From a virus, in IMG/VR virus record IMGVR_UViG_3300022198_003988, positions 1 to 40,017 of that record: a stretch of 40,017 bases of DNA; one strand, written 5' to 3'. The stretch's first letter is position 1. Every line of letters begins with the position of its first letter. A program made the translations under genes and the position numbers. The notes under the pieces were generated by a model. The model was not told where the DNA came from. It did no database searches and saw nothing but the letters and a program-made list of their open reading frames with translations. This document shows positions 3,615 through 17,614 of the stretch, piece by piece.

Positions 3615-3840
3615 TGTCTTCCTTTTTAGCCCGTGTGCGCTTTGGCTGTAACACCTTAGCTTGATACGCTTCCTTATCATGCGGGTTTAAATTCCCCCAT
3701 GCCAAAATAGACGACACAGGCCGAGGCTCACCACAAACATCACACTCCCTCAAAACTAAATGCGGATTAACAAACCCCTTATCCAACACGCCGCCATTCG
3801 CCGTCGCACAACTAATACAAATAACCTGAATCTTAGACAT
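3598..3840 (-). CDS. Small zinc-ribbon protein
   Basis: 80 residues. Two Cys pairs, CISC (8-11) and CDVC (33-36), make a likely four-Cys zinc ribbon in the N-terminal half. The C-terminal half is highly charged (KRTRAKKEDNADKD). Zinc ribbons of this kind bind nucleic acid or proteins; here the target is unknown. It overlaps the small terminase gene by 8 bases upstream and the next gene by 17 bases downstream, so it is part of the packaging gene cluster. It could assist DNA recognition by the terminase, which is an inference from position. Confidence 0.75.
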   Translation of the reverse strand: MSKIQVICISCATANGGVLDKGFVNPHLVLRECDVCGEPRPVSSILAWGNLNPHDKEAYQAKVLQPKRTRAKKEDNADKD

Positions 3841-4375
3841 CTATAACTTCTCCTTTTTCTTGCTTAACCGATCCTAAATCAATGTTTATGTTTATCTGAG
3901 TCTTACTGCCAGTATCCTCCACACCACCATGACCCGTAAACTTCATCTTATTACTCACCATACTCGCCAACGCCCCCGATACCCGAGAATCCCCCTCCTC
4001 AAACCGCTGCATCAACGACTGCAACACATCCTCAAACTGCCCCGCCGCAATTTTTGCGTCCAACATCACCGCCTTCACATACGTCTTGTGAACACTCACC
4101 ACAACTTCCTCAATATGCGGCTTCTTCATCCACGTCGCCGCCACTCGCTTATCAATCCCAGCCGCTTTCGCAGCCTTGTCCGGATCCAACGTCTTCTTGT
4201 ACTCCTCTAAAAAAGCAATTTGTGCCATCGTATACGCATAATGCTCCGGTATTTGTACCGGGTTGTTCCTATCCGCTACCAACTCCACCGGCGGATTATC
4301 CCTATCCACCTCTTTAAACTTCTTTTTTACACGAGCCATAACGTCCTTATCTATTTTCTTATTAATCTCTTTCAT
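3833..4375 (-). CDS. Terminase small subunit
   Basis: Up to 180 residues. The segment FLEEYKKTLDPDKAAKAAGI followed by DKRVAATWMKKPHIEE (about 55-90) is a helix-turn-helix typical of small terminases that bind the packaging site. A helical oligomerisation region and a Gly-rich tail (TGHGGVEDTGSKT) follow. The first ATG (4375) has no clear ribosome site; the in-frame ATG at 4339 (MARVKKKF, 168 residues) has AAGGA 5 bases upstream and may be the real start. It is the first gene of the leftward late operon, downstream of the promoter-like site at 4528..4556. Confidence 0.85.
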   Translation of the reverse strand: MKEINKKIDKDVMARVKKKFKEVDRDNPPVELVADRNNPVQIPEHYAYTMAQIAFLEEYKKTLDPDKAAKAAGIDKRVAATWMKKPHIEEVVVSVHKTYVKAVMLDAKIAAGQFEDVLQSLMQRFEEGDSRVSGALASMVSNKMKFTGHGGVEDTGSKTQININIDLGSVKQEKGEVIDV

Positions 4376-4926
4376 ACATTTGTTATGGCAGCAGCGTATT
4401 GTCGGTTGATTGTTTTAGTTTGTGAGAGAGAGAAAGAGAGTGAAATGATTTTAATCTCCACCACTACCATAACTCCCACCACTGTACCATACCCCCTAAA
4501 CTCTGTCAAGCACCTACCCACGTTAAGATAATACTAAAGCTTTTTGAGTACGTTAAACTATTCCTGATGCTTTTTAAACTTTACCCTTTTTGTAAAGCTC
4601 AAAAAATACAGAGGCTCTTTAGATAACGCATAGGGAAAAACGCGCTCGGCGGGTGCCCCCACCGAATTATGACCCCCCGGGGGGCTATCGTTTTCGTTGT
4701 AAACTCAAGCAATTATTGACGTATGTCGCATAATCTACATTATGTATAGTTTTACAAAAAGCCTGTAATCACAAGCAATTTGTACCGTGTCCAGTGTTTC
4801 AACAGCGGCCTATGAATAGCAGCGTCCGAGGCGCAGAGGGTAGACGTCTTCTTACCGCTTTAAACCGCTTAAATAGTCAACAGAGCGATAATTTTGTACC
4901 ATTTTGAGCATTTAGATACTTGGTGT
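4376..4926. other. Non-coding left part of the divergent control region, with GC-rich hairpins
   Basis: No convincing gene. Two GC-rich hairpins stand out in AT-rich surroundings. The first, at 4647..4664, reads on the minus strand as CGGTGGG, loop GGCA, CCCGCCG, with one T-G wobble; five T residues follow six bases later in the leftward direction. The second, at 4673..4684, is the perfect palindrome CCCCCCGGGGGG. A rightward TTGACG (4716..4721) has only poor -10 partners (ATTATG at 17 bases, TATGTA at 19). A GA-rich tract lies at 4424..4441. The hairpins could block read-through between the arms or mark a protein-binding or packaging site. Confidence 0.45.
4528..4556 (-). promoter_or_regulatory. 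Candidate sigma70 promoter for the late (terminase) operon
   Basis: Read leftward: TTAACG (4556..4551), a 17-base spacer, then TATTAT (4533..4528). This matches 4 of 6 and 5 of 6 consensus bases. Transcription would start near 4521 and give a leader of about 145 bases before the small terminase gene. It is the best leftward match I found in the divergent gap, and the only late-operon promoter candidate there. Confidence 0.5.
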
Positions 4927-4954
4927 TTGTGGATAGTAGCAAATAGTATATAAT
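4927..4954 (+). promoter_or_regulatory. Candidate rightward promoter
   Basis: TTGTGG (4927..4932), a 16-base spacer, then a perfect TATAAT (4949..4954). The predicted start is near 4961, just after the ATG at 4953 of the following small gene, so either that gene starts at the GTG at 4962 on a leaderless message, or it is read from a promoter further upstream. Confidence 0.4.
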
Positions 4955-5237
4955 GTTGCTTGTGAGCGTTAATAGATACCTAGTACGTATTAGTTTTAAA
5001 CGGGAAGTCAAGGCGCAAGTGTGGGTTAAGGCCAGAAGTACAAACCAAGCACTAGTAAATGCCTTGAATTCCATTAAGCATGACGTTAGCCATATCACTA
5101 GCTGTTGCGTCATCGGCCAACCAATTCCAGTGTGTAAGAGACGGCGAAAACAACAACAAGCCGAACAGCTACCAGAGCGGGCAGAGCGTTACAAAGCCAA
5201 AGAGCGTCCGAAGCCGCCAAGCGTATTCGACATTTAA
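4953..5237 (+). CDS. Small basic hypothetical protein next to the putative origin
   Basis: 94 residues from ATG 4953 (or GTG 4962). The first half, YLVRISFKREVKAQVWVKA then a helix TNQALVNALNSI, has the alternating strand-helix pattern of a genuine small domain. The second half is strongly basic and Gln-rich (CKRRRKQQQAEQLPERAERY) and ends KPPSVFDI. It is isolated between the divergent promoters and the box array. A basic tail next to an origin would suit a DNA-binding initiator or regulator, but I recognise no family. The ribosome site is poor, so its expression is uncertain. Confidence 0.5.
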   Translation: MLLVSVNRYLVRISFKREVKAQVWVKARSTNQALVNALNSIKHDVSHITSCCVIGQPIPVCKRRRKQQQAEQLPERAERYKAKERPKPPSVFDI

Positions 5238-5262
5238 TCAATAAAACCCCTTGCACAAAAAA

Positions 5263-5308
5263 TAGTAAAATATATATTTGTTATTATATATAAATATATA
5301 TTTTACTA
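5263..5308. repeat. 17-bp perfect AT-rich inverted repeat
   Basis: The left arm is 5263..5279 (TAGTAAAATATATATTT) and the right arm is 5292..5308, its exact reverse complement, with a 12-base AT-only loop apart from one G. As DNA it could extrude as a cruciform or melt easily. As RNA it could end transcription of the small gene that stops 25 bases upstream. It opens a very AT- and T-rich stretch that continues to about 5400, just before the TGTAATAC boxes. Confidence 0.8.
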
Positions 5309-5409
5309 CCCATATACGTTACTGTAGTTTTTTGGAATTTTATTTTTATTTTTATTTTAGTGTATTTTACAACGATTATTGAAAAAAAACAAAAATTTGT
5401 AAAAAACAG

Positions 5410-5623
5410 TGTATTACAAGTTTACGCCTACTGCAATATATACAAAATAAAATGATGTATTTTAGCCTATTTTTGTAATACAACCTTAAGCGTAAATTTG
5501 TAATACCGTATTACAGGATTACACGTAGTTTTGTAATACGTATATCAGCCGCTAGGCGTGGTTTTGTAATACGCAAAACAGGCTAAAATACAGCATTTTG
5601 TTTTTTGCGATTTTTGTATTACA
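5410..5623. repeat. TGTAATAC box array (candidate origin iterons or operators)
   Basis: Seven copies of TGTAATAC or its complement occur at 5410, 5474, 5499, 5508, 5532, 5565 and 5615 (start of each copy). Those at 5499 and 5508 form a perfect palindrome, TGTAATAC-C-GTATTACA. Three copies share a longer 18-base unit (rough form nnCGTrrwTTTGTAATAC) starting at 5489, 5522 and 5555, exactly 33 bp apart. A fourth unit lies inverted at 5411..5428. Two 17-base arms, 5457..5473 and 5575..5591, are inverted copies (16 of 17) that flank the core. Regular spacing near three helical turns is typical of replication iterons or cooperative operators. The array ends about 40 bp upstream of an early promoter. 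Confidence 0.75.
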
Positions 5624-5739: not shown

Positions 5740-5904
5740 ATGATTAACATAAACAGTACAAAACCAGAAGTGATGGAAGCAGTGAAGCGCAACGGCCTTT
5801 GGTTGCAGTATGCTAGTGATGATTTGAAGTCAGACCGTGAAGTGGTGTCGGTAGCAGTGAAAGAAAATCCATATGCTATTTTCCACGCTAGATTGGAGGC
5901 ATAG
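5740..5904 (+). CDS. Mini DUF4116-type repeat protein
   Basis: 54 residues, with AAAGGAG 7 bases before ATG 5740. It begins MININSTKPEVMEAVKRNG, the same start style as the DUF4116-type genes at 6955, 15158 and 15601 (MINxxSTK). It has one good repeat unit (VMEAVKRNGLWLQYASDDLK) and one decayed unit starting SDREVVSVAVKENP. It is the first gene after the early promoter. It may be a remnant of a longer array or a stand-alone two-unit module. The molecular function of DUF4116 is unknown. Confidence 0.75.
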   Translation: MININSTKPEVMEAVKRNGLWLQYASDDLKSDREVVSVAVKENPYAIFHARLEA

Positions 5905-5907
5905 AAA

Positions 5908-6105
5908 ATGAATACGTTTAAAACTTGGTTGGATTGTGCGCGACTGGCGCGGTTGTGTATTAAAGGCCCTGGACGGGAAATATACATTGATACATATTGT
6001 AAAGAAGTCCGATCAAGTAAGTATGGCCGGCCGGCTTTTACTTACGCTCACGACAAACTAGGTATAGATGACTATTGCCGCGAACGGTTTGAGGAAACTA
6101 AATAA
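5908..6105 (+). CDS. Small hypothetical early protein
   Basis: 65 residues starting at ATG 5908, with GGAGG about 9 bases upstream inside the end of the preceding gene. It is a mixed, charged, probably soluble protein (MNTFKTWLDCARLARLCIKG; later DKLGIDDYCRERFEETK) with four Cys that form no clear motif. The stop overlaps the start of the next small gene (TAATG). I recognise no family. Its position at the head of the early arm fits a host-takeover role, which is inference only. Confidence 0.65.
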   Translation: MNTFKTWLDCARLARLCIKGPGREIYIDTYCKEVRSSKYGRPAFTYAHDKLGIDDYCRERFEETK

Positions 6106-6236
6106 TGATAAGAATATCTAAAATTCATGGCCGTGTATGGCTTAAAGTGTTTGATGACACTGGCTTAGTGTATAGTGATGGCGATTTTGACACCATCAGT
6201 GACGCCATGGTTGCCGCGGCTTATTATTTAAAGTAA
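6105..6236 (+). CDS. Very small hypothetical early protein
   Basis: 43 residues, reading MIRISKIHGRVWLKVFDDTG and ending MVAAAYYLK. ATG 6105 overlaps the preceding TAA by one base, and GAGGA lies about 9 bases upstream. The pattern of short strands followed by a helix looks like a real small domain. No family is recognised. Confidence 0.6.
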   Translation: MIRISKIHGRVWLKVFDDTGLVYSDGDFDTISDAMVAAAYYLK

Positions 6237-6262
6237 TTAATTAAAATAGGAGAAAAAACAAA

Positions 6263-6937
6263 ATGAATATACAAACACATGCTTACAACTTAAAATGCGA
6301 TTCAAGCGTAAGATTCACAAAGAAAGACGCGCCAGAAACCCTGGAGCAATTGTATAACGCTACTGATGACGTTGACTTGCGAGAAAAACTGGCCTTGCTA
6401 TATTCAACAATGACAACAAAGCCAGCCGTGAAAAATAATCCGTTGGCATGGGTAGCAACGGCAACGGATCCAAAGTGTTATAGGAACCAGTTTGACAAAA
6501 TGCTTGTTGCTAACGGCTATGCGATTGGTTGCGACGGGTACCGTGTCCACGGCTACAAATTGCCGGCCAGCCAAGCGGCTGATCTTGAGGGCCAGTATAT
6601 CGACGCTAATGGCAACATTTTAGCTATTGACACGCGGACCAATTTACCGGTTGATCACATGTTAAAAATGCTTATTGAAGATGAGTACCCGCTAACTGAT
6701 ACCTTTGACATAGCAAAATGCGTTGTTGAAGCTGATGAGTACAGTTCTGATAAGTTTTTTGATCTAGACTTGTTTGGCCAGAAATGCCGTTTCATCAAAA
6801 AGTTTATTGAACAAGCCTTTAATGGCCGGCAAGCTGTCAAGGTGTGCACGTCAGCTGAATTCAAGGGCCAGCAAGCAGTAAGGTTTATGTTAAGCGATAC
6901 CGAGACAGCCGTTGTTATGCCGGTACGCATTCGGTAA
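6263..6937 (+). CDS. Possible sliding-clamp-like protein
   Basis: 224 residues, with AGGAG before ATG 6263. Two segments recall bacterial DNA polymerase clamp subunits (DnaN): GYAIGCDGYRVHGYKLP (compare the ATDGHRL turn) and the extreme C-terminus ETAVVMPVRIR (compare YVVMPMRL, which ends E. coli DnaN). The length would fit two clamp domains rather than the three of DnaN, as in the T4 clamp gp45 (228 residues, a trimer). If so, it would tether the family A polymerase encoded at 19730. The rest of the protein is too divergent to be sure; it may simply be a hypothetical early protein. Confidence 0.45.
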   Translation: MNIQTHAYNLKCDSSVRFTKKDAPETLEQLYNATDDVDLREKLALLYSTMTTKPAVKNNPLAWVATATDPKCYRNQFDKMLVANGYAIGCDGYRVHGYKLPASQAADLEGQYIDANGNILAIDTRTNLPVDHMLKMLIEDEYPLTDTFDIAKCVVEADEYSSDKFFDLDLFGQKCRFIKKFIEQAFNGRQAVKVCTSAEFKGQQAVRFMLSDTETAVVMPVRIR

Positions 6938-6954
6938 ATAGGGAGTCAACAAAA

Positions 6955-7362
6955 ATGATAAACGAAAAAAGCACAAAAAGTGAAGTAATGGAAGCCGTAA
7001 AACAGAATGGGTATGTGTTGTGTTATGCTAGTGAGGAATTGCGGAACGATCGGGATGTAGTGTTGGAAGCAATAAAGCAGTATGGGTATGCGTTGTATTA
7101 TGCTAGTGAGGCATTGCGGGCTGATCGTGAATTTGTACTGGAAGCAGTAAAGCAGAATGGCTTGGCGTTGTATTATGCTAGTGAGGTATTGAAAGCTGAT
7201 TGTGAGGTTGTTATGGAAGCAATAAAACAGGACGGGCGGGCATTGTATTATGCTAGTGAGGCATTGCGGGCTGATCGTGAGATAGTGCGGGAAGCAATTA
7301 AACAAGATGAGTATGCGTTGATGTATGCAAGTGATGAGTTAAGAAAGGAATTAAGCAAATGA
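6955..7362 (+). CDS. DUF4116-type repeat protein, five units
   Basis: 135 residues. After the start MINEKSTKSEVMEAVKQNG there are five units of exactly 25 residues, with the form DR(D/E)xVLEAxKQxGxALYYASEx(L)xA. Each unit should form a helical hairpin and the whole a small solenoid. At the DNA level this is a 75-bp tandem repeat in which Asp-Arg is mostly written GATCG. Residues after KQ and after G vary most between units. The stop overlaps the next start (ATGA). DUF4116 is known mainly as a repeated domain of unknown role; I cannot assign a target. Confidence 0.85.
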   Translation: MINEKSTKSEVMEAVKQNGYVLCYASEELRNDRDVVLEAIKQYGYALYYASEALRADREFVLEAVKQNGLALYYASEVLKADCEVVMEAIKQDGRALYYASEALRADREIVREAIKQDEYALMYASDELRKELSK

Positions 7363-7871
7363 TAAAGAAAAAAAGCGCTACACAAAAAGCAATTGAAAAT
7401 TCAAACGTACCCAAGGCCGCGCAAGCGGCCCTAGAGGATTTGTTTGCCGAGGCCTTTAGTCACTGCTGGGATTTTGAAACGGATATTCAGGGGACGGCCT
7501 TAACCATAAAAGACTTGTTCATTAAATTTTGTGAACAAGAATTCAAATCAGACCAACACGTTGCGGCTAGCGGGTATTTAGGGTTGGCCCGGGGGTATTT
7601 AGGCATAACTGCGGCTGAATGTTACAAACTGTATTTTGAAAAAGAGATTTTAAAAACTGGAAAATTTAACGGATATGACTACCTACCTTTTCAAGGCTAT
7701 GAGTATTTAGCCGTTGAGTTTAATAATGTACGAACAAGCAAGGGAACGGGCAAGCCATGCGACGTGTATTTTATCGAATTGAGGCAACACAATCGGTTTA
7801 TCAATTCATGGGTTGTTAAGGATTACCCACAAGACCATGATCCGTATCATCGTTACGCAAAAAGATCATGA
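7359..7871 (+). CDS. Hypothetical early protein
   Basis: 170 residues, ATG 7359 overlapping the preceding stop, with AAAGGA about 8 bases upstream. The first residues (MIKKKSATQKAIENS) echo the MIN-x-x-STK starts of the repeat genes, but no 25-residue units follow. The body is a mixed alpha/beta sequence with aromatic-rich stretches (YLGLARGYLGITAAECYKLY; GYDYLPFQGYEYLAVEF). It ends with HDPYHRYAKRS and overlaps the next gene by four bases. No family is recognised. Confidence 0.7.
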   Translation: MIKKKSATQKAIENSNVPKAAQAALEDLFAEAFSHCWDFETDIQGTALTIKDLFIKFCEQEFKSDQHVAASGYLGLARGYLGITAAECYKLYFEKEILKTGKFNGYDYLPFQGYEYLAVEFNNVRTSKGTGKPCDVYFIELRQHNRFINSWVVKDYPQDHDPYHRYAKRS

Positions 7872-8245
7872 CTAACAAACAGATTACAATACTCATACCC
7901 AAACTCAAAACCCCCGGAGCGTCCGGGGGCGCAGTAGTATTAAACCCGTTAGAGGTCCACACAACGCAAGCGGCTTATCTATACATTGGCCATGAGTTAG
8001 TAGCAGTACACCTATTTAATGGCCCAGCAGTGTTACCGTTCAAATGGTGTACGGGCGTACGTTCAGTAGATTTTGTGTGCGCCTTTCTGGTCCAGTATGG
8101 CCACAAGGTATCCGAGGGCAAGGCCGCAATCGACGCGGCTATTGCCGCCGGTACGATTTTGGTGAAAAATGCAAGGCCGGGTGGACGTTTAACGGTTGAG
8201 ATCAAGGGCGACATGGCAAAAAGTAAAAACAAGGAGCAAAAATAA
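7868..8245 (+). CDS. Hypothetical early protein with cassette-type tail
   Basis: 125 residues. The body includes TQAAYLYIGHELVAVHLFNG and an Ala-rich helix (KAAIDAAIAAGTILV); no family is recognised. The tail DMAKSKNKEQK is nearly repeated at the end of the following gene (NMAKSNNTEVKQ), and the DNA there also matches (8205..8235 against 8695..8725, 3 differences in 31 bases). Its stop overlaps the next ATG (TAATG). The shared tail is best read as the scar of a cassette duplication, not as a functional motif. Confidence 0.65.
   Translation: MTNKQITILIPKLKTPGASGGAVVLNPLEVHTTQAAYLYIGHELVAVHLFNGPAVLPFKWCTGVRSVDFVCAFLVQYGHKVSEGKAAIDAAIAAGTILVKNARPGGRLTVEIKGDMAKSKNKEQK
7912..7930 (+). other. Perfect GC-rich hairpin inside a coding region
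   Basis: CCCCCGGA (7912..7919), loop GCG, TCCGGGGG (7923..7930): an 8-bp perfect stem with a three-base loop, about 45 bases after the start of the 125-residue gene. It encodes TPGASGG. No T-run follows, so it is not a standard terminator, but it could slow ribosomes or polymerase or protect the message. Confidence 0.5.
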
Positions 8246-8736
8246 TGGATACAGCTACATGGAGTACAAAAGAAAAGGTTTTGCAATTGGTTAAGCACCA
8301 CGGGCGTGCGTTGCAGTATGCCAGTGAGGATTTGCAGAATGATCGGGACGTCGTCATGGCAGCGGTGAGGGACAACGGGCATGCTGTGATCTATGCAAGT
8401 TGGGAATTGCTACATGACCGCGAGGTCGTTCTGGCAGCAGTGAGAGAAAACGGACAAGCGTTGTTGAGCATTCACGAGAAATTTCGCAATGATAAAGAGG
8501 TCGTCATGGAGGCGGTGAAGCAGGATGGGACTGCGTTGCGGTTTTTAGCGTTGAGTCCAGTATCTGCTAAATTGCTGGCCGATCGGGATGTTGTCATGGC
8601 GGCGGTGCAGCAATCCGGGCGTGCGTTGCGGTGGGCGGCTGACGGATTGCTGGATGATCGGGGTTTTCTTCTGGAAGCGTTGCAGCAGGATGAGGGCAAC
8701 ATGGCAAAAAGTAATAACACGGAGGTAAAACAATGA
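8245..8736 (+). CDS. DUF4116-type repeat protein, diverged
   Basis: 163 residues with five recognisable 25-residue units and a partial sixth. The units are more diverged than in the other copies: the third lost YAS (ALLSIHEKFRN), and the fourth carries an insertion (ALRFLALSPVSAKLLA). It starts MDTATWSTKEKVLQLVKHHG, so the STK start is kept after a different leader. The start site belongs to the repeated AACAAGGAGCAAAAATAATG family. Its tail NMAKSNNTEVKQ matches the tail of the upstream neighbour. The stop overlaps the next start (ATGA). Confidence 0.8.
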   Translation: MDTATWSTKEKVLQLVKHHGRALQYASEDLQNDRDVVMAAVRDNGHAVIYASWELLHDREVVLAAVRENGQALLSIHEKFRNDKEVVMEAVKQDGTALRFLALSPVSAKLLADRDVVMAAVQQSGRALRWAADGLLDDRGFLLEALQQDEGNMAKSNNTEVKQ

Positions 8737-8945
8737 TTTTTAAACAGCATTTTCTATTGATTGCGGGGGCATTTATTATGAACGTCTTTTTACTGTGGCT
8801 TTCGCATATAGGTATTTTTATGGTAAAACAATCGCTAAATGACTTGGACGGTGAGATTATATTTTTTGGCTGTATGTTTATTATCGCTAGTTTTGGGCTT
8901 CAATGGTTTGCGTTAGCGTATTGGTTAAAGTCTTTTTATGAATAA
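8733..8945 (+). CDS. Small membrane protein, two helices
   Basis: 70 residues with two hydrophobic stretches: about 8-30 (LLIAGAFIMNVFLLWLSHIG) and 44-64 (FFGCMFIIASFGLQWFALAY). The short loop between them is acidic (NDLDGE). It is likely an inner-membrane protein with both ends on the same side. ATG 8733 overlaps the preceding stop and has GGAGG 8 bases upstream. Early phage membrane proteins often modify the host envelope or exclude other phages, but nothing here identifies the role. Confidence 0.65.
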   Translation: MIFKQHFLLIAGAFIMNVFLLWLSHIGIFMVKQSLNDLDGEIIFFGCMFIIASFGLQWFALAYWLKSFYE

Positions 8946-8960
8946 CAAGGAGCAAAAATA

Positions 8961-9401
8961 ATGATATCGTATAGGGTAAAAGAAAAAATAGGAATGAATT
9001 GGAAACCCCTTGGCCATTTTTATGTTGATAAAGATATTCTCCCGGACTTAGACTCTTTCCGACATAAAGTTCCAAGCGGACGTATTGCAGTGATTAGAAA
9101 TGATATAGCGAACGGGCCCGCTCAGGTTTGCATTATAGGTTTACCGAGCCTATTTGCACCGAGAGATAAAGAGTTTGTTCAGATTCTTGCTACTGTGGCC
9201 TTTTACGTGTTTGAGCTTAAAATTAAGTTTGACGGGCCCGAATGTGTTACCTTTCAGTTTGACGGTTCAGAGGACGAATACATGAACGACGGTGTTTTTC
9301 GGTGCCGGATTAGAACTGGTCGCAGAGGGGGTTTTGGTTGCCGTTTTGGGTGCTGGGATACGTCCTTTACCATGCGTTTACAAACAAAGGAGCAAAAATA
9401 A
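8961..9401 (+). CDS. Hypothetical early protein
   Basis: 146 residues. ATG 8961 lies in the repeated start-site sequence. The body is rich in beta strands (RIAVIRNDIANGPAQVCIIG; FVQILATVAFYVFELKIKF) with a Gly/Arg/Cys-rich stretch near the end (RTGRRGGFGCRFGCWDTSF). It ends LQTKEQK because the reading frame runs into the next repeated start site, and its stop overlaps the next ATG. No family is recognised. Confidence 0.65.
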   Translation: MISYRVKEKIGMNWKPLGHFYVDKDILPDLDSFRHKVPSGRIAVIRNDIANGPAQVCIIGLPSLFAPRDKEFVQILATVAFYVFELKIKFDGPECVTFQFDGSEDEYMNDGVFRCRIRTGRRGGFGCRFGCWDTSFTMRLQTKEQK

Positions 9402-9961
9402 TGATTTTTTTAGCAAAAGATAGCAGTAGTGAAAATAGCGGTAGTAAAGATAGCAGTAGTGTTTTTAATTTTAGGCGTATTGAAAAGTCCGATACAACTA
9501 AAATGATAGAAAGACTAGAGCAGTTAGGATCGTTTATAGAGTTAAAAAACTATGTAAAAACATATGAAAAGTATAATTTTAGTGGGTTAGAAACATATAG
9601 CTGGTGGAAAAATCCGTTTATGTTTGACAATTCAAAGCCCACAGGTGAGGAATATAGCCAAAAAGAGAGGGAAAAAGCCACGGTTATGAGAACTCTCTTT
9701 GAAAAACTAGGGGGCCAAGGCGATGCCTGTTGGTGTATAGAATTTATCAGTGGCAGTATAGTTGCGCTTAAGTTTTATCAGAGATTGTCAGGTTGTCTTA
9801 TAAAACTGTCACATGCTGAGGTGGCTTTTTGTGAAGTACCAGAAGTAGATAGTAATTTCATTGATGCACTAAACCAATTTACCGAAGAGTTTTCAGCAAT
9901 TATGGACGATACAGACCTAGCGAAACACGCTAAAAAACTACAAGACTTTATTGATCTTTAA
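9401..9961 (+). CDS. Hypothetical early protein with Ser-rich N-terminus
   Basis: 186 residues from ATG 9401, chosen over an earlier in-frame ATG because the repeated AAAGGAG start site lies directly upstream. Residues 8-20 are low-complexity (SSSENSGSKDSSS), coded by a near-duplicate of AGATAGCAGTAGTG. The remainder looks globular and helical (MIERLEQLGSFIELKNYVKT; KEREKATVMRTLFEKLGG), with CWCIEF in the middle. No family is recognised. The Ser-rich head may be a flexible tail and is an odd feature shared in kind with genes at 10596 and 11566. Confidence 0.65.
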   Translation: MIFLAKDSSSENSGSKDSSSVFNFRRIEKSDTTKMIERLEQLGSFIELKNYVKTYEKYNFSGLETYSWWKNPFMFDNSKPTGEEYSQKEREKATVMRTLFEKLGGQGDACWCIEFISGSIVALKFYQRLSGCLIKLSHAEVAFCEVPEVDSNFIDALNQFTEEFSAIMDDTDLAKHAKKLQDFIDL

Positions 9962-9980
9962 TAAACAAGGAGCAAAAATA

Positions 9981-10331
9981 ATGAATAAACAAGAAATGAT
10001 TGAGCTGTTAAAAACGGACGTACCGGCATGGAACCAATGGCGGGAGGACAACCCCTATGCGGTTATTGACTTATCGGAAACTGACTTTAGGTATGCAAAC
10101 CTTAGATGTGCAAACTTTATACGTGCAGACCTTTCTAGGGCGGACTTTTATAAAGCAGACCTCCGGGGGGCAAATTTTAGGGACGCAGATTTTTGGCCCG
10201 TACACTGTTATGGGGCGGACTTTAGAGGCGCATACTTTAGAGGCGCATATCTTAGACGTGCAGACTTTTGGGGCGCAAACTTTTATTTTGCAGACCTCTT
10301 TGCGCCATTTTCACTCACGGAGACAAAATAA
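9981..10331 (+). CDS. Pentapeptide-repeat protein
   Basis: 116 residues from ATG 9981 (repeated start site). After a helical lead (MNKQEMIELLKTDVPAWNQW) come about 14 pentapeptide units of the form A(D/N)(L/F)xx, from SETDF to YFADL, with one irregular unit (WPVHCYGADF). Pentapeptide repeats fold into a right-handed square helix. Some (MfpA, Qnr) mimic DNA and bind gyrase, while many have unknown roles. This one is short, so gyrase binding is only a possibility. The stop overlaps the next ATG. Confidence 0.85.
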   Translation: MNKQEMIELLKTDVPAWNQWREDNPYAVIDLSETDFRYANLRCANFIRADLSRADFYKADLRGANFRDADFWPVHCYGADFRGAYFRGAYLRRADFWGANFYFADLFAPFSLTETK

Positions 10332-10612
10332 TGAATAAACAACACATGGTAACATTTAGAACAGAAGAAGTAGTGGCACGACTATTTAAAGCGTATTGCA
10401 AAGACAAGGGCGTGACGGTCACATGGGCGTTGTCAGCGTTCATGGCTATGGTAGTATCCAAAGTTTATGAAGCCGACACAGAGATTGACACGATTTTAGC
10501 GAAAAAGATAGCGGGTTCGACTTGTTATCAGCAAGAATTTCTGCTATTAATTAGAGACTTAATGGGCGATATGATAACAAAATTGGAGGCAACAAGTGAC
10601 GCCACGGATTGA
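10331..10612 (+). CDS. Ribbon-helix-helix-like DNA-binding protein
   Basis: 93 residues from ATG 10331, which overlaps the previous stop and has CACGGAGA upstream. The first 45 residues fit a ribbon-helix-helix fold: a short strand HMVTFRTEE, helix VVARLFKAYCKDKG, turn VTVTW, helix ALSAFMAMVVSKVYE. A helical C-terminal part (FLLLIRDLMGDMITKLEA) could aid oligomerisation. Such proteins bind short palindromic boxes cooperatively as dimers. The TGTAATAC array at 5410..5623 is an obvious candidate target, by inference only. Confidence 0.6.
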   Translation: MNKQHMVTFRTEEVVARLFKAYCKDKGVTVTWALSAFMAMVVSKVYEADTEIDTILAKKIAGSTCYQQEFLLLIRDLMGDMITKLEATSDATD

Positions 10613-11102
10613 GACCGTTAAAATGAGCCAGCCAACGTTAAACAGGCACGTTGGCGCACAAACAAAGAAAATGCCGATGGTTGCAATTGAGAGCCGGCAC
10701 ATTGATTGCATTCATGGTCCGATAATAGTGAGTCCGTTAGACCTTATTAACCTTAAAAAAAGCGGTAGTGATGACGTAAGCGGTAGTAGTGACAGAAGTG
10801 GTAAACAAACAAAAGCCACACAAACAGAGTTTGAACATTTAAAACCGCCGGTGAAGTCAGAAACATCCGTCGAGGTTCAAACAGAGTTTACAAGTTTTAC
10901 CCGCACCCCACATTATTATTTGCCGGAAAATCATTTTGACAAGTATTTGATTGTGGATTCCTGCGAAGACTTAGATTCGCAAGCGATAACGCAAAAAGCT
11001 AAAGCGTTCAATCAAGACTTTCTTACACGCTTCGGGCATTTGTTTCCGATAAACTTTATCATTTCGTATTTCCATGAAACGTACCGACAATCAAAACTAT
11101 AG
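10596..11102 (+). CDS. Hypothetical early protein with Ser/Gly linker
   Basis: 168 residues from a GTG start at 10596, supported by TTGGAGGC with the GGAGG 5-6 bases upstream. It overlaps the preceding gene by 17 bases. A central flexible part (GSDDVSGSSDRSGKQTK) precedes two related short segments, KATQTEFEHL and VEVQTEFTSF. The C-terminal third (FNQDFLTRFGHLFPINFIIS, then YFHETYRQ) looks folded. No family is recognised. The Ser/Gly segment is coded with the same agcggtagt bases seen in the gene at 9401. Confidence 0.6.
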   Translation: MTPRIETVKMSQPTLNRHVGAQTKKMPMVAIESRHIDCIHGPIIVSPLDLINLKKSGSDDVSGSSDRSGKQTKATQTEFEHLKPPVKSETSVEVQTEFTSFTRTPHYYLPENHFDKYLIVDSCEDLDSQAITQKAKAFNQDFLTRFGHLFPINFIISYFHETYRQSKL

Positions 11103-11113
11103 GAGGATTATTG

Positions 11114-11581
11114 ATGAGACCAAACAACATTAAACCGGGCATTGCAAAATACACGCATTTAAAATATGAGTATCAGCGAGATAAATCCGAGCCAAAACCA
11201 CGGTATGGCCAACCGACTTTTCCATATTCGTATAATAAAAACGCACGCGTTAGTTTTTTAGACCAGCTCCAAGCTCTAAAGTATCAGCGAGAAGTGCCGA
11301 AAGCGCAAAACCCACAATACGGCCAGCCACTTCCGTCGTACAATAAAAACGAACGAGTAAGTTTGGTAGATGAACTCCGAGCTATAGAGCGTCAGTATCC
11401 ACAAGCAAAGCAGCGCAAGTCCCGTTACGAATATAGTAAAAACAAACGAGTAAGTTTTTTAGATCAAATCCAAGCAATTCCGTATAAAGAGATCGAGCCG
11501 CCAACGCCAAGGAAAGTCCCGATGCCTTATAAATTGTTAAGCGAGATACAGTTGTTAAGGATTTTATGGATGATCCGCTAA
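11114..11581 (+). CDS. Repeat protein with three KNxRVS(F/L)xD units
   Basis: 155 residues from ATG 11114 (AGGAGG 8 bases upstream). Three units, Y-N-K-N-A-R-V-S-F-L-D-Q-L-Q-A-L, YNKNERVSLVDELRAI and YSKNKRVSFLDQIQAI, are separated by variable Tyr/Gln/Pro-rich spacers (KPRYGQPTFPYS; QYGQPLPS). The protein is strongly basic and largely unstructured outside the units, each of which could form an extended strand plus a short helix that binds a partner. No family is recognised. Three copies suggest a scaffold that recruits several partner molecules. It overlaps the next gene by 16 bases. Confidence 0.65.
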   Translation: MRPNNIKPGIAKYTHLKYEYQRDKSEPKPRYGQPTFPYSYNKNARVSFLDQLQALKYQREVPKAQNPQYGQPLPSYNKNERVSLVDELRAIERQYPQAKQRKSRYEYSKNKRVSFLDQIQAIPYKEIEPPTPRKVPMPYKLLSEIQLLRILWMIR

Positions 11582-12069
11582 TGGACGGTATCCGAGGGTG
11601 CACGGTATCAAGCAGTTCCGGCGGTTCAGATCGTGCGGAAAGACCGTTTGTTCCGGTTTTTGTAAACAATCGAGTTGTTTATGTGCCGGAGTATGCGAGA
11701 GGGGCTTTTTCTGACGCAGTTAACGACATTTGGATGGACTATACACTGGCGTTGAAAGTAGATAAAAAATTAATATTAGACCCCGACATGTTGATCGAAC
11801 TTTTAAACCACGCCAAGTATCATTGGCACGACAGGCTTGCTTACTTTTCGCCAGACGCTGAGGTTAGCGCATCGGAGCGGATAGAAAACTTGTTTATTAA
11901 CAACCTGCATCTTTGTGCGGAAGAAAGTCACTTGGTGCGGGATATTATCAGGGGGTACAAATCTCTCGTTGAAGAAACAGTGGCTCAGAACAATACGGCT
12001 CCGATTGTGCCAATGTGGATGCTTAACAGCGCATCGAGTCGGAGCAGTCGTATTTGTGCCATATTGTAA
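11566..12069 (+). CDS. Hypothetical early protein
   Basis: 167 residues; ATG 11566 with AAGGA about 4 bases upstream, overlapping the previous gene. After a short Ser/Gly segment (VSSSSGGSDRAER) comes VNNRVVYVPEYARGAFSDAV and a helical body (MLIELLNHAKYHWHDRLAYF; AEESHLVRDIIRGYKSLVEE). No family is recognised. It is the last gene before a new promoter, so it probably closes the accessory early operon. Confidence 0.65.
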   Translation: MDDPLMDGIRGCTVSSSSGGSDRAERPFVPVFVNNRVVYVPEYARGAFSDAVNDIWMDYTLALKVDKKLILDPDMLIELLNHAKYHWHDRLAYFSPDAEVSASERIENLFINNLHLCAEESHLVRDIIRGYKSLVEETVAQNNTAPIVPMWMLNSASSRSSRICAIL

Positions 12070-12073
12070 ACGC

Positions 12074-12102
12074 TTTACAAGCGCGACTAAGTAGTTTATA
12101 GT
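12074..12102 (+). promoter_or_regulatory. Sigma70 promoter for the replication block
   Basis: TTTACA (12074..12079), a 17-base spacer, TATAGT (12097..12102): 5 of 6 matches at both boxes and ideal spacing. It lies in the only sizeable gap of this part of the arm (12070..12146), 45 bp before the primase-helicase gene. The -35 overlaps a small hairpin (CGCTT-TAC-AAGCG, 12071..12083). Confidence 0.6.
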
Positions 12103-12146
12103 TATATTACTTTATCAATATCAATATCAAATCAGGAGAACAGCCA

Positions 12147-14297
12147 ATGACCCGATTACAGCCCAGTGAGGCACTATTAAAAACAGTTAAAACTTTTTAT
12201 AACAACGGACTGATAACCATGCCACTTAGGGGCAAGGTGCCGATGGTAAAAAACTGGACGCAGTTAGAGCTACCAGAAGCCTTTGACCCAAACTACTACA
12301 CAACCAGCTCAGCGGGCTGGGTGATTCGTGAGCCTTATCTGGTTATCGATGTGGACGTGCGCTCAGAAATTAATGGAATGGTTGGCCTACAACGGCTATC
12401 TGATGACCTTGGGTTTGATTTTTTAAACAACGCGGGCGTTATGGTGCGCACACCGACTGGGGGCTTGCATTTGTACTACAAGATCTTCCAGAGCGGCGTG
12501 AGTTACAAGAAAAACTTGGCAGCTTACGAAGGTTTGGACTTTTTGAGAGACGGCCACCAAGTATTGATACCACATAGCGAGACGGAGGCGGGTATATACC
12601 AACTGGATGGCGGCGAAAACAAATTCTCAAACATTGTCGAGATACCAGAAGGATTACACTTGTTATTGGGGCAAAAAGAAACCGAGTCGTGTGGGGGCAC
12701 TGGTTATTTTACGGACACTAAAACAGATAAGTTACTCTTGACAGGCTACGTTAAACAGTTTGGTGTTGTTGGTGAGGGCGAGCGTAACAATGCCTTGTAT
12801 AAGATGGCTTGTCGGGGATACGATTTAGGGTTGTCGCCCGAAGTGGTATTGGGTATTGTATCGGAGGCGGATTGTTTCGCGCCTCCGTTGTGCACTAAAG
12901 AGCTGGCTACCACGCTTGTAAGCGCATTGAGCGCAAGACAAAACGAGATTGGTTCGCATTCTGTTGAGGAAGCACTGAAAGCCTTAGGCCCCATAGATTC
13001 TGGCTGTTCTCCGGGCCAAGGGCTTAATGACGTGCTTCCCCAAGAGAAGGCGGCCGCTCAGTTTGATGAAGTGTGCCCATGGCACGACAAGCTACATAAA
13101 ACCAAACATGGCACCGTGAGTTCTCAGAATTTTTGTGTAAGAAACTGCGCTATATTCTTAAAGAACATGAAAGAGTTTAAAGGCAAGTTGGGCTACAACG
13201 AGTGGAGTCGTGAGACTGTGTGGTTAGAGCCATGTAGTTGGCACGCATTTTATAAAGAGGACTGTATGCCCAATGGCATTGCGGTTACTGATGACGATCT
13301 GTTGTCTATCAAGACGTTGTTTAACGACATGGAGTTTGACCCGTTGGTTAACCAGATCTACCAAGCGGCTCGGACTGTTGGGTTTGAGAAAAGTTTTCAC
13401 CCGGTCAAGAAGTGGTTTAGTGAGTTGCCGGAGTGGGACGGTGTCGAGCGGGTACGTGGGTTGTTCCCAAACTACTGCAACGCTGATGATACTGCGTTTA
13501 ATCGGGAGGTTGGCGAGGTGTTGATGTGTGCGATTGTTAAACGCATTTATGAGCCGGGCTGCAAGTACGATCACATGGTTGTGTTGGTTGGCCCGGAGGA
13601 GCAAGGGAAGTCAACAGCGATTAAGGCCTTGTCGGTGTTTAATAGTTGGTTCACGGATTCGCTGGGCGATATTAACAAGACTGGCGATGCTATCCAGCAG
13701 ATCAAAGGGAAGCTGATCGTGGAGGACTCGGAGCTTAATGCTTTTATGAGCCGGTCGAATACGGTTGCGAGTGTTAAGGCGTTTATATCTCGGGAGGTTG
13801 ACCGAGCGCGATTGGCGTATGCGAAGTTGACCGAGGACGTTCCGCGCCAGTGTGTGTTTATGGGCACAACAAACGAGAACCAATTTTTGAATAGCGTCAC
13901 AGGTAACCGCCGGATATGGCCGGTTGAGGTGTACGACATTGACGTGCCAACGCTTACCAACGATTTACCACAGTTGTATGCGGAGGCCTTGGTTGTTTAC
14001 AAAAAGCGGTACGCTGGGTTAAAGAATGGGTTGGTGTTGCAATCGGCAGAAGCTATTGAGCAAGCCAAGAAAGCTCAAACTAGCCGAATTGAAGTGGACG
14101 AGCTTGAAAGGGTTATTCAAGAGTGGTTAAATAAAGGCGTGAGAGACGGTTTCCAGTTGAGTGATGTATGGGATGGTTTAGGTCGAGATATAATCCACTT
14201 AAGCATTAAGGAACAAAAGCGTCTTGAGCGTGCGTTGTTGAAGTTGCAGTATAAACGCAGTGATAATGGGTTTGTGAAAATTGGAGGTAAAAAATGA
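12147..14297 (+). CDS. Prim-pol / VirE-type primase-helicase
   Basis: 716 residues. The N-terminal primase-polymerase domain shows VIDVDVR (Asp68 and Asp70), TPTGGLHLYYK (102-112) and GLDFLRDGHQVLIP (from about 129), the three metal and nucleotide motifs of this family. A Cys/His cluster follows in the middle (CPWHDKLH ... NFCVRNC), perhaps a zinc site. The C-terminal part is a VirE/VapE-type ATPase with Walker A VGPEEQGKST (481-490) and the typical IKGKLIVEDSEL and MGTTNENQFL segments. It should unwind DNA and make primers for the family A polymerase. AGGAG lies about 8 bases before ATG 12147, and it heads the replication operon. Confidence 0.9.
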   Translation: MTRLQPSEALLKTVKTFYNNGLITMPLRGKVPMVKNWTQLELPEAFDPNYYTTSSAGWVIREPYLVIDVDVRSEINGMVGLQRLSDDLGFDFLNNAGVMVRTPTGGLHLYYKIFQSGVSYKKNLAAYEGLDFLRDGHQVLIPHSETEAGIYQLDGGENKFSNIVEIPEGLHLLLGQKETESCGGTGYFTDTKTDKLLLTGYVKQFGVVGEGERNNALYKMACRGYDLGLSPEVVLGIVSEADCFAPPLCTKELATTLVSALSARQNEIGSHSVEEALKALGPIDSGCSPGQGLNDVLPQEKAAAQFDEVCPWHDKLHKTKHGTVSSQNFCVRNCAIFLKNMKEFKGKLGYNEWSRETVWLEPCSWHAFYKEDCMPNGIAVTDDDLLSIKTLFNDMEFDPLVNQIYQAARTVGFEKSFHPVKKWFSELPEWDGVERVRGLFPNYCNADDTAFNREVGEVLMCAIVKRIYEPGCKYDHMVVLVGPEEQGKSTAIKALSVFNSWFTDSLGDINKTGDAIQQIKGKLIVEDSELNAFMSRSNTVASVKAFISREVDRARLAYAKLTEDVPRQCVFMGTTNENQFLNSVTGNRRIWPVEVYDIDVPTLTNDLPQLYAEALVVYKKRYAGLKNGLVLQSAEAIEQAKKAQTSRIEVDELERVIQEWLNKGVRDGFQLSDVWDGLGRDIIHLSIKEQKRLERALLKLQYKRSDNGFVKIGGKK

Positions 14298-14536
14298 TTG
14301 ACATATTAACATATTTTCAAAGAGTTATATTTACAATAGCGTATTGGGGCTCGCTGATAGGGGCCATGTGGTTTGTTTGTCGCGGCCCAAACTTAGACGA
14401 CAACGATAAGACCTTAGGCGGAGTATGCTACAACGTTCTAATACGAACAATACTGGCGGCGGTTGCGTTAGTTGTATGGTACTATGCGTTCACATTTATA
14501 TTCTTTTTATTCTTTGAAACAGTGGGAGCGTTGTGA
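14294..14536 (+). CDS. Small membrane protein
   Basis: 80 residues. Two hydrophobic stretches (about 8-27 VIFTIAYWGSLIGAMWFVC and 50-75 ending VVWYYAFTFIFFLFFETV) flank a polar loop (RGPNLDDNDKTLGG). It is probably an inner-membrane protein. ATG 14294 overlaps the primase-helicase stop and uses the GGAGGT 7 bases upstream. It sits oddly between the primase-helicase and the repeat-protein genes; there is no family match. Confidence 0.6.
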   Translation: MIDILTYFQRVIFTIAYWGSLIGAMWFVCRGPNLDDNDKTLGGVCYNVLIRTILAAVALVVWYYAFTFIFFLFFETVGAL

Positions 14537-15165
14537 TGAGTGACGATATCCGATCACATAACGTCGGAGCCTCGGACTATTCAAAATATAAAATACAGCC
14601 ATGGGACATTTGGCTTGAGTACAATTTAAACCCATGGGACGCTGATATTGTTAAACGTGTATTACGCAACAAACCGGGTGAGCGACGACTGGATTATGAA
14701 AAGATTATTCATGTGTGTCAGGAACGTATCAGGCAAATAGATGAAGTTTATTATTCTGGGCTGGGCGTGCCGGCCAATTCGATTCAAACTTTGGGGCGTG
14801 GGGATTTGACTCAGGTGAATTTAGATGCTGAAAATAGTGCGGAGACAAAAAAGGAAGAAATGTTAGAAGCTGTGAAGCAGTATGGGCTTAATTTGCTGCA
14901 TGCGAGTGAGGAATTGAAGGGTGATCGGGATGTCGTGATGGCAGCGGTGAAGCAGAATGGTCTTGCGTTGGATTATGCAAGTGAAGAATTGCAGAATGAT
15001 CGTGATATAGTCATGGCAGCGGTGGAGCAGTGGGGGAGTGCGTTGCGGTATGCGAGTGAGGAATTACGTGCTGATCGTGAAATAGTCAGGGCAGCGGTGA
15101 TGAAGTTTCGGGGTGCGTTGGAGTATGCGAGTGAGGAATTGAGGGGTGAGTTCGATAATGATTAA
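14536..15165 (+). CDS. DUF3310-like domain fused to DUF4116-type repeats
   Basis: 209 residues from ATG 14536, which overlaps the previous stop; GGGAG lies 7 bases upstream. A GTG just before is possible but too close to the ribosome site. Residues about 12-70 (YSKYKIQPWDIWLEYNLNPW, then DADIVKRVLR and LDYEKIIHVCQERIRQ) resemble the small DUF3310 domain, found for example in T7 gp1.7. A short linker leads to four 25-residue DUF4116-type units ending YASEELRGEFDND. DUF3310 is linked to nucleotide metabolism in T7; whether this one has any enzyme activity is unknown. Confidence 0.75.
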   Translation: MSDDIRSHNVGASDYSKYKIQPWDIWLEYNLNPWDADIVKRVLRNKPGERRLDYEKIIHVCQERIRQIDEVYYSGLGVPANSIQTLGRGDLTQVNLDAENSAETKKEEMLEAVKQYGLNLLHASEELKGDRDVVMAAVKQNGLALDYASEELQNDRDIVMAAVEQWGSALRYASEELRADREIVRAAVMKFRGALEYASEELRGEFDND

Positions 15166-15353
15166 TAAAAATAGCACAAAAGCAGAAGTGATGGCAGCGG
15201 TGAAGCAGAATGGTCTTGCGTTGGATTATGCAAGTGAGGCATTGCAGAATGATCGTGATATAGTCATGGCAGCGGTGAAGCAGTATGGGCGTGCGTTGCG
15301 GTATGCGAGTGAGGAATTACGTGGAGATCGTGAGGTGGTGCTGGCAGCGGTGG
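14938..15353 (+). repeat. Near-identical repeat shared by two adjacent DUF4116 genes
   Basis: The 86 bases from 14938 match those from 15191 with two differences, and weaker matching continues for about 75 more. The copies lie in different genes and different absolute frames (offset 253), but each is in the repeat frame of its own gene. The 24 bases from 15021 recur at 15350. This is direct evidence of recent 75-bp-unit duplication or gene conversion. Confidence 0.9.
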
Positions 15354-15604
15354 AGCAGTGGGGGAGTGCGTTCTGTTATGCGAGTGAGGAATTGCAAGGC
15401 GATCGGGATGTTGTACTGGCAGCGGTGGAGCAGCGGGGGAGTGCGTTGAAATATGCGAGTGAGGAATTGAGGAATGATATAGATGTGGTTAGGGCAGCGG
15501 TGACGCAGAGTATCCACGCGTGGCGGTTTGTTAGTGAGAGAGCGCGAATTGAAATAGCGGAATGTTGGGCTAAGTGTAAAGATTGCGCAGGAGGTAAAAA
15601 ATGA
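15158..15604 (+). CDS. DUF4116-type repeat protein with Cys-rich tail
   Basis: 148 residues from ATG 15158 (MINKNSTKAEVMAAVKQNG), preferred over an upstream GTG because it restores the family's usual start. It overlaps the end of the preceding gene by 8 bases. There are five 25-residue units; the fifth is decayed (AAVTQSIHAWRFVSERARI). The tail IEIAECWAKCKDCAGGKK has three Cys in a C-x3-C-x2-C pattern not seen in the sister proteins, perhaps a metal or disulfide site. The DNA is almost identical to parts of the gene before it. Confidence 0.8.
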   Translation: MINKNSTKAEVMAAVKQNGLALDYASEALQNDRDIVMAAVKQYGRALRYASEELRGDREVVLAAVEQWGSAFCYASEELQGDRDVVLAAVEQRGSALKYASEELRNDIDVVRAAVTQSIHAWRFVSERARIEIAECWAKCKDCAGGKK

Positions 15605-16011
15605 TTAATAAAAAGAGTACGAAAGAGAAAATACTGTCGAGCCTAAAGTTTAACACAATTGGGTTGGTTTATGCGGGTGATGACTTGCTGGCTGATCGTG
15701 AGTTTATCCTTGAAGCGATGGAGCGGCAAGTAAGTGCGTTGGCGTATGCGAGTGGAGACCTGCTGGCTGATCGTGAGTTTATGCTTGACGCGATGAAGCG
15801 GCAAGTAAGTGCGTTGGAGTATGCGAGTACTGAGCTGAGGGTTGATCGTGATTTTATGCTTGAAGCCGTGAAAACGAACGGGCTCGCCTTGGCGTACACA
15901 AGTAAGAGGTTGCAGGCTGATCGCAACCTCGTCATGGCGGCGGTTAAGCAGGATGTTCGGGCGTTGCGGTGGGCAAGTAAGGAATTAAAAGGTGAGTTCG
16001 ACGATGATTAA
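15601..16011 (+). CDS. DUF4116-type repeat protein, five units
   Basis: 136 residues from ATG 15601, with GGAGG 7 bases upstream, overlapping the previous stop (ATGA). It starts MINKKSTKEKILSSLKFN. Units 1-3 form a distinct sub-type (DREFxLxAMxRQVSALxYAS), while the last two resemble the other genes. The sequence around its end, GGTGAGTTCGA followed by the next ATG, is the same as at the end of the gene at 14536, so the 3' boundary was copied with the cassette. The C-terminus is GEFDDD. Confidence 0.8.
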   Translation: MINKKSTKEKILSSLKFNTIGLVYAGDDLLADREFILEAMERQVSALAYASGDLLADREFMLDAMKRQVSALEYASTELRVDRDFMLEAVKTNGLALAYTSKRLQADRNLVMAAVKQDVRALRWASKELKGEFDDD

Positions 16012-17614
16012 GCCAACTTTAACTTATGATCCGTTAACGCAAGAGTATTTTTATGCTTGCAGTCGCGAGGAGAAAGACATACCGAAACAATGCCGGATGA
16101 AGTGGTCGGCTGGAAACACAGCTTGGAAAACTAAAGACTGGGCATTAGCCATGAGAGCCGCAGAGCTTTCAGGTATAGGGACTGCCATGTTCAAAGATAA
16201 ACTAATTAAGCCACCAGCTCGACTCACCCTCCCGGATTTTCTGTACGACTACCAGAAGGAAGGCATCCGAACGATTGTGGCTAATAAAAATCTATTGTTA
16301 GCCGACGAGCAAGGGCTAGGAAAAACGGTACAAACCATTGAGGCCTTGCGGTACATAGACGCTCGACGCATTTTAGTATTGTGTCCGGCATCGCTAAAGT
16401 ATATGTGGCAGGAACAATTTGACCAATGGTCGGATAACCTACTCACCCAAGTAGTAAAAAACGGTAAATCGACAATTGCCCCACCCAGCAATTGGGAGAT
16501 CCCGCCTTATGACCCGGTACAATTTAACCCAGAGGACGAACACCCATTAACTCCGGTTCAGATTAACGGTGAGTCCAGAATCATACAGCCATGCAACGTC
16601 GTCATTGCTAACTACGATCTGGTGTCTAAACGGTATATCTATGAGCAGTTACGCGCATGGGCCCCCGATATGGTGATCTATGATGAAGCGCATTATCTCA
16701 AGAACCCCACGTCCAAGCGGGCCAAGGCTTCGTTTCTACTGGGGGCTAACGCTGATCGGCGACTGATGCTTACTGGTACCCCAATGCTTAACCGGCCTAT
16801 CGAGCTTTATAGCATACTTCGGTTTTTAAAACGAGAAGCTGTGGAACCGTATGACAATTATAAAAAGTACGGGTATAAGTTTTGTAACGGTAAAGAAGGC
16901 CCATTTGGTTTTGATGTTAAGGGAGCCAGTTGTACCGACGAGTTAAACTACCGCCTCAAACGCACAGTGATGTTGCGGCGACTAAAGGCCGATGTGCTTA
17001 CCGATCTACCAAGCAAGACGATGCAGATTATTCCCATGGAGCAAACCAAGGACACTAAAAAGATAGTCAAGCAGGAAGGATTGTTCGACGTGAATAGGAT
17101 TTTAGAGAAGCCGGACGCCAACCTTATTGGCGAGATGGCTACTATCCGTCGAGAGCTTGGAGAAGCTAAGCTACCCCAGAGCATCAGCTACATTAAAGAT
17201 GTAATGGCGAGTGGCGTTGAAAAGGTTGTGGTGTTTGCGTACCACAAGGCAGTATGTGAGGGGCTGTACGAAGCGTTTAAAGACGACGGTGCGGTGCTAG
17301 TCTATGGCGGTACGGCTTCAACTGATCGCCAACGCTACGTCGATCGGTTTCAAAAAGACGCAGACACCAAAGTCTTTATCGGCCAGATACAAGCAGCCGG
17401 CACTGGGCTTACCCTAACCGCAGCCAGTCATGTAGTGTTTGTAGAGAACAGTTGGGTGCCCGGAGAGATGGACCAAGCAGTTGACCGCTGCCACCGCATT
17501 GGTCAGAACAATAAAGTAACAGCGCAAGTATTGGTTGTTAAGGATAGCATCGACCATGTTATAATGAGATCAATGTTTTTTAAAAAGAGAAGGATTAAGG
17601 AGGTTTTAAAATAA
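16004..17614 (+). CDS. SNF2-family helicase
   Basis: 536 residues from ATG 16004. A short N-terminal region (about 1-75) recalls the lead of HARP/SMARCAL1-type proteins. Motif I is ADEQGLGKT (100-108), motif II DEAH (227-230), motif III LTGTP, motif V QAAGTGLTLT and motif VI DQAVDRCHRIGQ. These ATP-driven translocases move on double-stranded DNA and may remodel forks or strip proteins. Phage copies typically lie in replication blocks with VirE-type primases, DUF2800 and DUF2815 genes, as here. ATG 16004 overlaps the preceding gene by 8 bases; an upstream in-frame GTG is less likely. Confidence 0.93.
   Translation: MIKPTLTYDPLTQEYFYACSREEKDIPKQCRMKWSAGNTAWKTKDWALAMRAAELSGIGTAMFKDKLIKPPARLTLPDFLYDYQKEGIRTIVANKNLLLADEQGLGKTVQTIEALRYIDARRILVLCPASLKYMWQEQFDQWSDNLLTQVVKNGKSTIAPPSNWEIPPYDPVQFNPEDEHPLTPVQINGESRIIQPCNVVIANYDLVSKRYIYEQLRAWAPDMVIYDEAHYLKNPTSKRAKASFLLGANADRRLMLTGTPMLNRPIELYSILRFLKREAVEPYDNYKKYGYKFCNGKEGPFGFDVKGASCTDELNYRLKRTVMLRRLKADVLTDLPSKTMQIIPMEQTKDTKKIVKQEGLFDVNRILEKPDANLIGEMATIRRELGEAKLPQSISYIKDVMASGVEKVVVFAYHKAVCEGLYEAFKDDGAVLVYGGTASTDRQRYVDRFQKDADTKVFIGQIQAAGTGLTLTAASHVVFVENSWVPGEMDQAVDRCHRIGQNNKVTAQVLVVKDSIDHVIMRSMFFKKRRIKEVLK

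Follow-up and report, generated by a model that had tools for sequence, protein, structure and literature searches.

The locus considered here raises the question of why a phage genome of about 40 kb should carry six genes built of repeats of a single family, DUF4116, which occurs in bacteria, giant viruses and phages alike and has no assigned function.

The window and its early region

The window is the whole stretch of DNA that was analysed, an IMG/VR virus record 40,017 bases in length with a GC content of 0.45. Its ends are near-exact repeats, with bases 1 to about 122 present again from about 39,895, and it is thus probably a complete circularised genome. The half on the plus strand encodes a primase-helicase (Prim-Pol/VapE-type), an SNF2 helicase, a DUF2800 nuclease-like protein, an Enc34-type ssDNA-binding protein, a family A polymerase and RuvC, and the half on the minus strand encodes the terminase, portal/adaptor, major head protein, internal virion protein and tail proteins. 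The initial annotation called this a podovirus, and the internal virion protein and the tail and portal/adaptor families agree with that label. All of the DUF4116 genes are within the replication/early half, with none among the virion genes.

The GTAWTAC sites listed in Table 1 have a spacing of 64, 25, 8, 25, 33 and 50 that is identical in the relative L121. Similar clusters are present in L118, L123 and L127, and there are only five further sites in the rest of the window. The cluster is a probable operator, or set of origin iterons, of the early operon. The early region also includes a gene for a pentapeptide-repeat protein (9981-10331), separate from the six DUF4116 genes, and as the versions in relatives are only 37-47% identical it represents a second repeat family that is turning over in this region. 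Among the virion genes of relatives, TerL is of 578 residues instead of 472, in a single open frame, in L131:1782-3518, L125:13882-15618, L033 and L034, which suggests an in-frame insertion, possibly intein-like.

Table 1. Positions of the DUF4116 genes and associated features in the window
Feature	Position	Strand	Remarks
Seven GTAWTAC sites	5411..5622	.	AT-rich gap upstream of rep1
rep1	5740..5904	+	54 aa, 2 units, MININSTK leader; first gene past the intergenic repeat cluster
rep2	6955..7362	+	135 aa, 5 units, MINEKSTK leader
rep3	8245..8736	+	163 aa, 5 units (one of 30 residues), MDTATWSTK start
Primase-helicase (Prim-Pol, VapE-like)	12147..14297	+	conserved; flanks the variable sites on the left
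rep4	14536..15165	+	fusion of a conserved small phage protein (residues 1-~80) and 4 DUF4116 units
253-bp direct repeat, 87%	14935..15394	+	joins rep4 and rep5
rep5	15158..15604	+	148 aa, 5 units, MINKNSTK leader
rep6	15601..16011	+	136 aa, 5 units, MINKKSTK leader
SNF2-type helicase	16004..17614	+	conserved right border of the variable sites

The six DUF4116 genes

The six repeat genes first proposed by inspection were all found as plus strand ORFs, and their assignment to DUF4116 is confirmed, as all six proteins match PF13475 with E values of 6e-16 to 7e-72 and scores of 58-237 bits, well above the curated gathering cut-off of 24.9 bits. A six-frame HMM search of the window gave 15 PF13475 matches, every one of them inside the six ORFs. 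The proteins also match the profile of PHROG 31839 (E 9e-5 to 5e-34). Ankyrin, TPR, HEAT and pentapeptide Pfam repeat models are not among the matches of the six proteins, and PADLOC, for which the models are of defence and not counter-defence, gave only weak matches that are probably compositional.

With regard to the number of units, 25 were detected with a 25-column unit profile and a 26th, which is degenerate, can be seen by eye at the start of rep6, in accord with the earlier count of about 26. The profile found no units in shuffled sequences (200 trials per gene) and gave no score in any other protein of the window. Units had been described as of 25 residues, and this spacing is found in about 91% of neighbouring unit pairs in the phage set, but one unit of rep3 is longer. 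The MINxxSTK start reported for four of the genes, and the retention of STK by rep3, were both seen again.

In the case of rep4, residues 1 to ~80 correspond to a small ORF that stands by itself in near relatives (92-98% identity), and the units come after a linker, at residues 105-204 (from nt 14848), without the STK leader. The first rep4 units and rep5 both match one six-unit gene in L090, and this, together with the direct repeat that joins the two genes, indicates that one repeat gene was recently duplicated and became fused to the conserved small gene.

Predicted fold and variability of the units

The initial annotation suggested a modular helical solenoid, and the AlphaFold2 models bear this out as a predicted fold, with mean pLDDT of 90.9 for rep5 (34 sequences) and 93.6 for a 392-residue relative. 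Each unit has three short helices in the models, at positions 2-11, 13-18 and 21-24, and DUF4116 units are confidently predicted to fold as an alpha-solenoid, as was already predicted for the family (PMC8078820). A fold search of the PDB gave no similar solved structure at E<=0.001 (best E 0.25) and a PDB sequence search gave no convincing relative; of the viral models, those of giant-virus DUF4116 proteins matched best.

Variability is far from even along the unit, and the strict framework that had been described is clearly seen. For 250 distinct units the entropy is 3.54 bits at position 14, 3.46 at 17, 2.96 at 12, 2.88 at 25 and 2.65 at 21, against 0.6-1.1 bits at the framework positions 5, 8, 15, 16, 19, 20 and 23. 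Position 14 is 37% F/W/Y/H and 6% D/E. The ratio of pN to overall pS for nearest-neighbour unit pairs is 1.40 (95% CI 1.12-1.74) at position 14, but as the pairs mix paralogues and orthologues and are non-independent, a value above 1 at this position is not proof of selection. The ratio is 1.18 (0.90-1.44) at position 17, 1.12 at position 25 and 0.51 overall, and it is 0.04-0.3 at most framework sites.

It had been thought that the exposed residues are being diversified, and this stands only in part. The variability is indeed uneven and position-specific, and surface exposure of the variable positions is what the predicted helix pattern would lead one to expect. However 911 cellular DUF4116 units vary at the same positions (Spearman 0.88), and the pattern is thus family-wide and not specific to this phage. 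Being common to cellular DUF4116, the variable positions need not reflect phage-host conflict, and the pattern is what one would expect of a binding face common to the whole family. Nor are changes between recently shared genes concentrated there: the six most variable positions account for 9 of 24, and position 14 for none (four gene comparisons, which are non-independent; p=0.10). Ongoing point mutation as the main mechanism of diversification was dropped on this ground. It is gene and unit content that diversify, mostly via recombination.

The variable positions of each unit are in a turn between two helices, a layout similar to that of TALE and PPR proteins, and one could think of modular binding of nucleic acid with one residue set per unit. 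We consider this very improbable, as the DUF4116 proteins are acidic (pI 4.8-5.7), the units are of 25 residues and not 33-35, and solved TALE and PPR structures were not matched by fold.

Turnover in related phages

The initial annotation also raised the matter of repeat numbers in related phages, and DUF4116 genes were found to differ there in number, length and order at fixed sites. In close relatives they range from 60 to 392 or more aa. The order VirE, g14294, rep4 core and SNF2 is conserved and the DUF4116 genes between these vary, such that relatives with VirE and SNF2 88-98% identical (VirE 93-98% in the near group) carry different DUF4116 sets in the same sites. DUF4116 genes of 392, 301 and 136 residues are found after the core in G002, and of 147, 123 and 321 residues before g14294 in G010. 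G056 has one of 306 residues before g14294 and one of 173 after; in G057 there are genes of 73, 131 and 205 residues before and of 242 and 190 after. G053 has an additional gene of 93 residues between the DUF2800 and ssDNA-binding genes. Other accessory genes in the early region turn over too. No DUF4116 was seen in the sister lineages for which TerL identity is below ~56%, the records of these being fragments.

The shared repeat genes are younger than the backbone. For recently shared rep genes dS, computed on named gene pairs, is 0.02-0.06, as against 0.2-0.4 for the backbone in the same pairs of phages. In comparison with G056, dS is 0.031 for rep2 and 0.043 for rep3 but 0.30-0.38 for VirE, SNF2 and TerL, and in comparison with G002 it is 0.023 for rep6 but 0.21-0.34 for VirE, SNF2, PolA and TerL. 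The range for rep2 against relatives is 0.02-0.14.

Changes can also be seen within arrays. In the phage contigs L106 and L111 the DNA is about 99.9% identical, and what sets them apart is the loss of exactly two units, or 150 bp. Three nucleotide-identical inner units are common to rep5 and L090, the end units differing at both sides, and L102 and L105 have one array stretch that is identical and one array that is mosaic. Unit loss and exchange, like the family, the repeat architecture, the fixed sites and the turnover, can be read from the sequences themselves.

Recombination between repeats is easy, there are only two units in rep1 and the recently shared copies have dN/dS that is high relative to the backbone, all of which would suit a largely selfish or neutral expansion, in which recombination duplicates and spreads tandem 75-bp units of little function and short genes like rep1 are decaying remnants. 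However reading frames are intact in 110 distinct phage proteins, the framework positions are strongly constrained (pN/pS 0.04-0.2), and the leader and Shine-Dalgarno region are conserved. We think this explanation unlikely.

A leader shared by unrelated phages

The start M-I/V-[NDK]-x-x-S-T-K/R is found in 73 of the 110 distinct phage DUF4116 proteins. Its nucleotide sequence is conserved as well, and this conservation takes in the Shine-Dalgarno region (GGAG..AAAAA ATGATT.AT.AAAA.AGTACAAA) and reaches as far as the first unit. The leader is also present in phages with GC of 0.33-0.37 (L245, L247, L248, L250 and others), which have no structural or replication proteins in common with the window at E<=1e-6, and in one of these lineages the portal belongs to another family and there is a baseplate-like protein. 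The 79 cellular loci gave a single leader-like string, which is outside the DUF4116 frame. With the leader present in unrelated phages and not in the DUF4116 frames of these cellular loci, the leader-tagged genes look like a phage gene family that is moving between phage lineages. L245, a phage contig of low GC and without relation to the window, has eight consecutive DUF4116 ORFs (1559-5490), mostly with an MI[ND]xxSTK leader.

Finding leader-tagged cassettes in unrelated backbones is as expected of phages that meet in the same cells, and the solenoids could be directed at proteins of co-infecting phages or satellites in the same host, in which case the turnover would reflect conflict between phages. 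However co-infection alone suffices for cassette exchange, and we regard a conflict of phages with each other or with satellites as quite unlikely to be the explanation.

Proposed role

We infer for these proteins a binding face, intracellular host targets and a part in counter-defence. The framework would give a fixed rod of stacked 25-residue units, with varied side chains at positions 12, 14, 17 and 21, in the turn and second helix. This row of residues, aromatic-rich at position 14, may be the ligand-binding face, and we liken it to that of ankyrin, TPR and designed repeat proteins. The proteins would act inside the infected cell on host proteins, such that defence is blocked or host factors are taken over; action inside the cell is most likely because the genes belong to the early/replication operon rather than to the virion set. 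Along with this location, the repeat-only architecture, the probable binding face and the rapid turnover of cassettes at fixed sites would suit intracellular binders of variable partners. The use that we consider likeliest for such early binders of host proteins is counter-defence or takeover of the host, with a probability that we would put a little short of even.

The near-identical leader and 75-bp units would provide the homology for gain and loss of units, for mosaic arrays and for transfer of whole genes between phages, and recombination could in this way generate new binding specificities. It is conceivable, but we hold it doubtful, that aquatic phages draw on a common stock of leader-tagged solenoid cassettes, recombined one 75-bp unit at a time to give antibody-like combinatorial binders against variable proteins of hosts or rival phages. 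If variable host proteins are indeed bound, the phages would carry a naturally occurring collection of repeat binders, and these genes may represent a new counter-defence class. The system is a tractable one, with small proteins of confidently predicted structure and natural variants that have known unit changes and are exchanged at fixed sites.

Comparison with cellular DUF4116 and other repeat systems

The cellular DUF4116 loci that were retrieved are from intracellular bacteria, environmental Chlamydiae and Legionellales among them, from Clostridia and Bacilli of the gut, and from a small number of marine single cells. Some of the proteins have ankyrin, TPR, U-box, pentapeptide or PipB2_N regions, a mix that is consistent with DUF4116 being a general protein-binding scaffold. 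The backbone of this phage was found in none of the 79 cellular loci, the only match being one of pentapeptide repeats.

There are two cases of plasmid association, which we treat as a lead. In a Bacteroides plasmid operon (L220:4904-14120) an ArdC-like anti-restriction protein adjoins a DUF4116 protein, with DUF1896 and a giant helicase, and this operon is a candidate anti-restriction neighbourhood. In a Fusobacterium plasmid DUF4116 is fused to RadC, adjoining a PBECR4 nuclease. Mycoplasmopsis cynos (L221, NZ_LR214986) has four adjacent large DUF4116 genes, and at least 40 match places in its genome, about 60% identical to rep5, and is a large bacterial expansion of the rep5-type repeat.

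Ankyphages are a precedent for phage-encoded ankyrin effectors (PMC7064744), and the DUF4116 proteins could likewise be released from the infected cell to bind eukaryotic proteins, be they those of a symbiont host or of a grazer. The frequency of cellular DUF4116 in Chlamydiae, Legionellales and intracellular bacteria, and the domains found with it there, would suit such a role, as would the presence of DUF4116 in giant viruses, where some of the proteins are named as F-box or kinase proteins. However the genes are in an early DNA-replication operon, no integrase was found among the family matches of the window proteins and no N-terminal hydrophobic signal is visible, which makes a moron role less natural; nor was the phage leader found in the cellular homologues retrieved. 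An effector role of this kind appears quite improbable, and we prefer binding of host proteins within the infected cell.

DUF4116 and its presence in phages were already known. Phage genes of this type are on record as PHROG 31839, a phage DUF4116-like family without functional annotation, and a DUF4116 gene is recorded in Fusobacterium phage phiFN37. In a literature search that was thin on subscription journals we found no description of multi-gene, leader-tagged, recombining DUF4116 sets, and it is these that appear to be new. Cellular members of PF13475 are often long, with further regions or domains, whereas those of phages are small, repeat-only and leader-tagged, and occur in shuffled sets of several genes. 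The giant-virus proteins have a similar predicted fold, but are from viruses of eukaryotes and mostly larger. Ankyphages and phage WO likewise carry helical repeat scaffolds for binding proteins, but ankyphage proteins are of a different repeat family with a eukaryotic host as target, whereas the genes of the window are part of a replication operon.
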